Below are positions 24,386-24,457 of a stretch of DNA of 25,375 nt, in pieces (the stretch's first letter is position 1; each line of letters starts with the position of its first letter). The notes below the pieces were generated by a model. It saw only the letters and a program-made list of their open reading frames with translations, made no database searches and was not told where the DNA came from. The stretch is taken from positions 1-25,375 of the IMG/VR virus record IMGVR_UViG_3300035070_000305. One strand, 5' to 3'. Source of the DNA: a virus. Position numbers and translations under genes: made by a program.

Positions 24386-24457
24386 TTACTTATTCATTAC
24401 ATACATTGTTACTTCAAAGCCAAATCTCATTTCTGTAGCTGATGGTTTTGTCCACAT
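24386..24457 (-). CDS. pqqA: PqqA-like peptide, precursor of the cofactor PQQ
   Basis: 23 aa. The peptide starts MWTKP and contains RFGFEVTMY, ending VMNK, close to bacterial PqqA (usually 22-24 aa, typically MWxKPxxxxLRxGFEVTMY). Glu15 and Tyr19, the residues that the radical-SAM enzyme PqqE cross-links to make pyrroloquinoline quinone, sit at the positions known for PqqA. AAGGA lies eight bases before the ATG. It is on the opposite strand to the genes on both sides and has its own TATAAT. No pqqB, C, D or E is in the window, so maturation would depend on host enzymes. Too short for ordinary gene callers. Confidence 0.85.
   Translation of the reverse strand: [23 protein letters not shown]

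Follow-up and report, generated by a model that had tools for sequence, protein, structure and literature searches.

The stretch of viral DNA analysed here, called the window below, is 25,375 bases long and carries on its minus strand, at positions 24386-24457, a gene of 23 codons: an ATG, 22 further codons and a TAA stop. Its product has 23 residues, within the roughly 22-24 expected for PqqA, the precursor peptide of the redox cofactor PQQ. In known PqqA the enzyme PqqE joins a glutamate (E15) to a tyrosine (Y19), and the translation places a glutamate at residue 15 and a tyrosine at residue 19 (E-x3-Y), just as an earlier sequence-only reading had claimed. The glutamate-tyrosine bond itself is described in PMC5715301. 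Profile matching, which that reading had proposed as a test, returned both families for this peptide: Pfam PF08042 (PqqA) with 43.3 bits (E 3e-11; cut-off 21.1) and NCBIfam TIGR02107 (PQQ_syn_pqqA) with 40 bits (cut-off 20), both scores being roughly double the curated cut-offs. Searched in six frames, the entire 25,375-base IMG/VR record gave it again (E 8e-12), as its only PqqA. The match is far beyond chance. Among solved structures none matches the peptide. Translation, profile matches and an identical peptide in the OM43 phage Venkman agree in this: judged by its sequence, the open reading frame is a true pqqA.

The gene belongs to a genuine phage genome. The minus strand of the window encodes a terminase, a portal, a major head protein and virion proteins, and the plus strand recombination-type genes. 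Relatives in Venkman exist for 22 of the 42 open reading frames, and the virion module is colinear between the two phages, with up to 82% amino-acid identity. Around pqqA the genes run the other way. Its convergent neighbour at 23982-24278 (+), a 98-aa phage gene of PHROG 24909, marks the insertion place, and on the other side of the unit a 75-aa open reading frame at 24549-24776 (+) comes first; the description of a lone gene set against local transcription thus holds. In Venkman the identical PqqA is likewise antisense, unannotated and adjacent to a homologue of the 98-aa gene (gp26), and such a homologue also stands next to pqqA in 31 IMG/VR loci. Other genes of the window deserve a short mention. 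Upstream of the 98-aa gene, at 23244-23966 (+), lies a ParB/DndB/GmrSD-N-like protein (PHROG ParB-like, weak Pfam matches). At 24773-25213 (+) a 146-aa protein of PHROG 13596 contains a GVEVKYD stretch that, by eye, resembles a PD-(D/E)XK nuclease core. In the structural region, a 577-aa protein at 7460-9193 (-) with many NTAIG/NTAVGYQA-type repeats is probably a tail fibre with a repeat-rich shaft.

The pqqA unit seems to bring its own signals. The Shine-Dalgarno sequence and TATAAT box noted by the sequence-only reading are both present on the minus strand: AAGGA at 24466-24470 (-), 8 nt before the ATG, and a -10 promoter-like TATAAT at 24490-24495 (-), 33 nt before it. An SD-like motif and an ATG start accompany all of the at least 119 viral pqqA genes found by a pattern scan of IMG/VR. 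The TATAAT box is kept in relatives: among syntenic units, each of the 17 distinct upstream sequences has it, at a distance of 30-45 nt from the ATG; in Venkman and in the viral locus L079 it is weakened to TAAAAT. Within 60 nt upstream it precedes 33 of 123 viral pqqA genes and none of 130 sampled host copies. Between the box and the Shine-Dalgarno sequence lies an imperfect palindrome, TTGATTAACCAA (24472-24483, minus strand), which recurs with at most one base changed in Venkman and in the loci L026, L028, L029, L033, L104 and L079. It was not seen upstream of host pqqA or of most other viral pqqA, and could be an operator.

Downstream, a stem-loop at 24289-24376 (-) starts 9 nt after the stop codon, with the outer stem ACACT..CCCTCAAG/CTTGAGGG.AGTGT and a predicted fold of -32 kcal/mol (z -3.35). 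Its outer stem is conserved in syntenic relatives while the loops vary, and a stable hairpin follows the stop in the syntenic units, with a sequence that differs between clades. Across viral loci, folding after the stop exceeds that of shuffled sequences (mean z -1.92; 39 of 114 terminator-like vs 8 shuffled); the leader is also inclined to fold (mean z -1.10). The probable role of the stem-loop is to end convergent transcription or to make the mRNA more stable. Since the unit in the window shows no clear -35 element, and its stem-loop, lacking a T-run, is not a classic terminator, the labels promoter and terminator are no more than likely. A generic promoter scan gave no excess of sites, and Rfam and tRNA scans of the window returned nothing.

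How widespread is such a gene among phages? A tblastn search of the peptide against 50,697 phage records gave 12 matches: nine Methylophilales phages, the environmental genome ctXG6705 and two contigs labelled Acinetobacter phage. The nine are Venkman, P19250A, MEP301, MEP401, MEP402 and four Melnitz records, and they are all the methylophage records found in the collection, a search of it for MEP431-434, HIM624-A and Venkman EXVC038S having given no record. One of the Acinetobacter phage contigs (L127, CAKLQF020000010.1) carries a bacterial pqqBCDE operon and ppk and looks like a mislabelled bacterial contig; the second has the same weak PqqA match. Both are or look like bacterial DNA, and in the 50,697 records there is no genuine match in phages of other hosts. 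The suspicion that relatives may be unannotated proved right: the locus has no annotation in the records of Venkman, P19250A, MEP301, MEP401 and MEP402, and a wrong-strand open reading frame is annotated there in ctXG6705 and Melnitz.

In IMG/VR, where viral pqqA was sought with degenerate DNA patterns, the gene occurs in at least 119 stretches. With the window as blastn query 113 viral loci matched, 87 of them only around pqqA, and in the end regions of MEP402 and MEP301 the pqqA segment is all that most other methylophages match. The carriers are of different kinds: MEP401 and MEP402 are filed as Zobellviridae, and Melnitz as Kyanoviridae. Because the match is confined to the pqqA segment and the carriers are so different, unrelated phages with hosts of one order have evidently acquired the gene or exchanged it. 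On average a phage copy differs from other phage copies by 4.5 nt and from sampled host copies by 8.1 nt, which hints at exchange among phages, although codon bias or limited host sampling could also explain these distances. Grouping the loci into lineages by tblastx was given up, since nearly all of them chained into one component. Eight IMG/VR contigs (L002, L007, L010, L014, L015, L042, L090 and L107) encode other PqqA types, for example MKWSKPTYQKLRLGFEVTMYFKQV and MKWEKPNFKDIRLGFEVTCYIAIN; they may stem from viruses that infect other PQQ-using hosts, or be pieces of bacterial DNA.

The cross-link residues and the length of the peptide are conserved. Conservation in a first scan was not counted, because its pattern fixed E15 and Y19; a second scan left both residues and the C-terminus free. 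In this free scan E15, Y19 and a length of exactly 23 residues were each found in 124 of 124 genes, the outcome that the sequence-only reading had asked for in related phages. At the codon level there is variation: both glutamate codons are used at E15, and TAT and TAC are nearly balanced at Y19 (63/61). Over 95 distinct MWTKP genes pN/pS is 0.17, and 0.23 at the codons outside the first pattern. Given this conservation of residues and length and the low pN/pS, purifying selection evidently keeps a host-type product, and drift is ruled out.

The presence of the gene, on the other hand, is patchy. Among 80 IMG/VR relatives of the 98-aa gene, an opposite-strand pqqA comes next in 31, is absent in 40 and is undecidable in 9. 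On the tree of the 98-aa gene, presence changes 4 times, compared with 20.9 for shuffled labels, and in the window's clade all 11 relatives of the 98-aa gene have kept pqqA. As to the likeness to a moron that had been suggested, the unit combines a kept TATAAT box, a hairpin after the stop and patchy presence (31 vs 40) with neither a -35 element nor a T-run terminator. The 98-aa gene also occurs in phages of Vibrio, Marinomonas and Flavobacterium, none of which gave a PqqA match; the presence of pqqA follows the host and not the neighbourhood. It is fairly probable that a stand-alone pqqA is a near-universal, repeatedly acquired mark of Methylophilaceae phages, across unrelated phage families.

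The host side fits this picture. The commonest Methylophilaceae peptide differs from the window's PqqA by one residue, at position 6. Among the host-scan matches listed, nearly all are Methylophilaceae, some records being named only at higher rank; the scan used a host-like pattern and says nothing on such peptides in other bacteria. One contig binned as Flavobacteriaceae (L175, CAKZOO010000028.1) carries a Methylophilaceae-type pqqA and has probably been misbinned or belongs to a phage. That the host should be a PQQ-using methylotroph had been proposed from the window alone, and this proposal is now well supported for a Methylophilaceae host (OM43/LD28-like) by the colinearity with Venkman, by genuine PqqA matches confined to Methylophilales phages and one environmental genome, and by the single difference from the host peptide. 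The suggested check for host pqq genes came out positive for PqqE, which is over cut-off in 18 of 18 genomes of this inferred host family, alongside 2-12 pqqA per genome. The literature gives 3-12 pqqA but one pqqBCDEFG set for Methylophilaceae (PMC4109929). The largest number among 19 genomes was seen in Methylophilales bacterium LSUCC0135 (L156, L171, L200), with twelve pqqA matches in a 2.1-Mb genome. The viruses are different: the 50 virus records that were searched whole have one PqqA each, and among the same 50 neither PqqE nor a methanol dehydrogenase is over cut-off, with two weak radical-SAM matches in the search for PqqE.

What could a phage gain from a precursor alone? One PqqA is spent for every PQQ made, while the pqq enzymes turn over many substrates. 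The precursor is therefore needed continuously, and with enzymes that are reusable its supply alone would be the cheapest route for a phage. Our reading is that the pqqA minigene of this lytic-type Methylophilaceae phage very probably feeds the PQQ enzymes of the host and keeps its methanol dehydrogenases charged during infection. In such an infection the 23-residue phage peptide would be translated and then held by host PqqD, host PqqE would cross-link its Glu15 and Tyr19, and host proteases, PqqB and PqqC would finish it to PQQ. This PQQ would keep XoxF/Mxa charged, so that methanol oxidation could go on delivering energy while host transcription is shut down. The inferred parts of this reading are that the gene is expressed in infection, that host enzymes process its product and that the phage benefits.

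Several observations bear on this role. The product of xoxF requires PQQ. In an OM43 isolate xoxF is always the most abundant transcript (PMC5120137). According to a citation in PMC9851590, a Gluconobacter cell extract turns added purified PqqA into PQQ; with a precursor that is consumed and enzymes that are reused, a phage wanting PQQ would thus need only the peptide. In Acetobacter, raising pqqAB gave only 29% more PQQ, as against an eightfold gain with the whole cluster (PMC7936290); the limit is thus not set by the precursor in every case. The culture medium of OM43 is supplemented with PQQ (PMC9004378), which hints at a real demand, but uptake may cover it. In hosts with several pqqA copies, one more might add little unless the host transcripts are lost.

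This last point leads to the closest rival, in which the phage replaces and does not boost: its copy would only offset the destruction of host pqqA messages once infection has begun, with PQQ never rising above normal. It agrees with the consumption of one PqqA per PQQ, with the many copies that hosts keep (PMC4109929) and with the -10-like boxes that phage units have and sampled host pqqA do not, and we regard it as quite possible, if a little short of probable. The opposite effect is also conceivable, namely a decoy or brake that, by binding PqqD or PqqE, reduces the synthesis of PQQ or draws the enzymes away, since a precursor that comes without enzymes could compete with the host's PqqA. 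For this purpose an intact E15 and Y19 would be unnecessary, yet both are kept in every gene of the free scan, and the phage peptide nearly equals the host's own. A decoy role was rejected on the E15/Y19 evidence and is very unlikely.

The remaining rivals deny the gene any role in the phage. Loose pqqA copies are abundant in host genomes and might be picked up by chance as neutral DNA. Against such an origin stand the purifying selection (pN/pS 0.17-0.23), the long-term retention at one place within clades and the presence of pqqA in phage lineages that share a host order but are not related; the codon pattern refutes neutral pickup unless sampling misled, which leaves it highly improbable. 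Bacterial contamination of virus contigs would fit the two Acinetobacter phage matches, one of which sits inside a bacterial pqq operon. As a general explanation it runs against a window that is phage throughout, from terminase to portal and capsid, against pqqA in complete genomes of cultured phages and against the absence of PqqE over cut-off from all 50 whole-searched virus records, and its probability is close to nil.

For methanol oxidation OM43 and LD28 bacteria rely on PQQ enzymes, whose transcripts and proteins rank with the most abundant ones in coastal water. If all phages of these bacteria supply the PQQ precursor, PQQ supply would be a bottleneck of infection. Should the near-universal reading be true, few known auxiliary metabolic genes (AMGs) would be as small as pqqA, and no other case would show as clearly a phage that provides just the consumable substrate for a cofactor pathway of its host. 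A metabolic gene may be common in viruses and yet be missed, here because 23 codons are below the usual gene-calling limits. The peptide could serve as a host marker, with a virus contig that encodes this type of PqqA pointing to a Methylophilaceae host. Cultured pairs, such as Venkman or Melnitz on H5P1 and MEP401 on FZCC0133, render the idea directly testable.

The idea of a phage-encoded pqqA is itself not new, because a Lake Baikal T4-like virus, VP_266, was reported in 2020 with pqqA beside a methanol dehydrogenase gene (PMC7678222). A 2026 reservoir study lists pqqA among viral phosphorus genes (PMC13188868). A phage pqqA goes unmentioned in the papers describing Venkman, MEP301, MEP401/402 and Melnitz, and PQQ is absent from the main text of surveys devoted to viral metabolic genes in the ocean and to methane genes of viruses. 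In its outlines the role is known. Within the open-access literature, what appears to be new is that the minigene supplies the precursor only, that every methylophage record found contains it and that it is strictly tied to one host group.

Among known systems the nearest is the pqqA of the Methylophilaceae themselves (PF08042/TIGR02107), which is near-identical in sequence and shares the length of 23, E15 and Y19, the start and the Shine-Dalgarno sequence. These hosts, too, carry loose pqqA copies away from pqqBCDE (PMC4109929). In contrast to host pqqA, the phage copy is single, lies antisense in an early-type region of the phage and has its own TATAAT box. VP_266 shares with the window a viral pqqA, a predicted Methylophilaceae host and the same proposed role (PMC7678222), but it is T4-like and has a methanol dehydrogenase, whereas the window phage is a Venkman relative without one. 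The cultured methylophages Venkman, P19250A, MEP301, MEP401/402 and Melnitz have the same gene, not annotated as pqqA. Like phage AMGs such as pmoC and psbA, pqqA is a metabolic gene of host type in phages that infect this host; unlike these, it encodes with its 23 codons neither an enzyme nor an enzyme subunit but a substrate peptide, the precursor of a RiPP.
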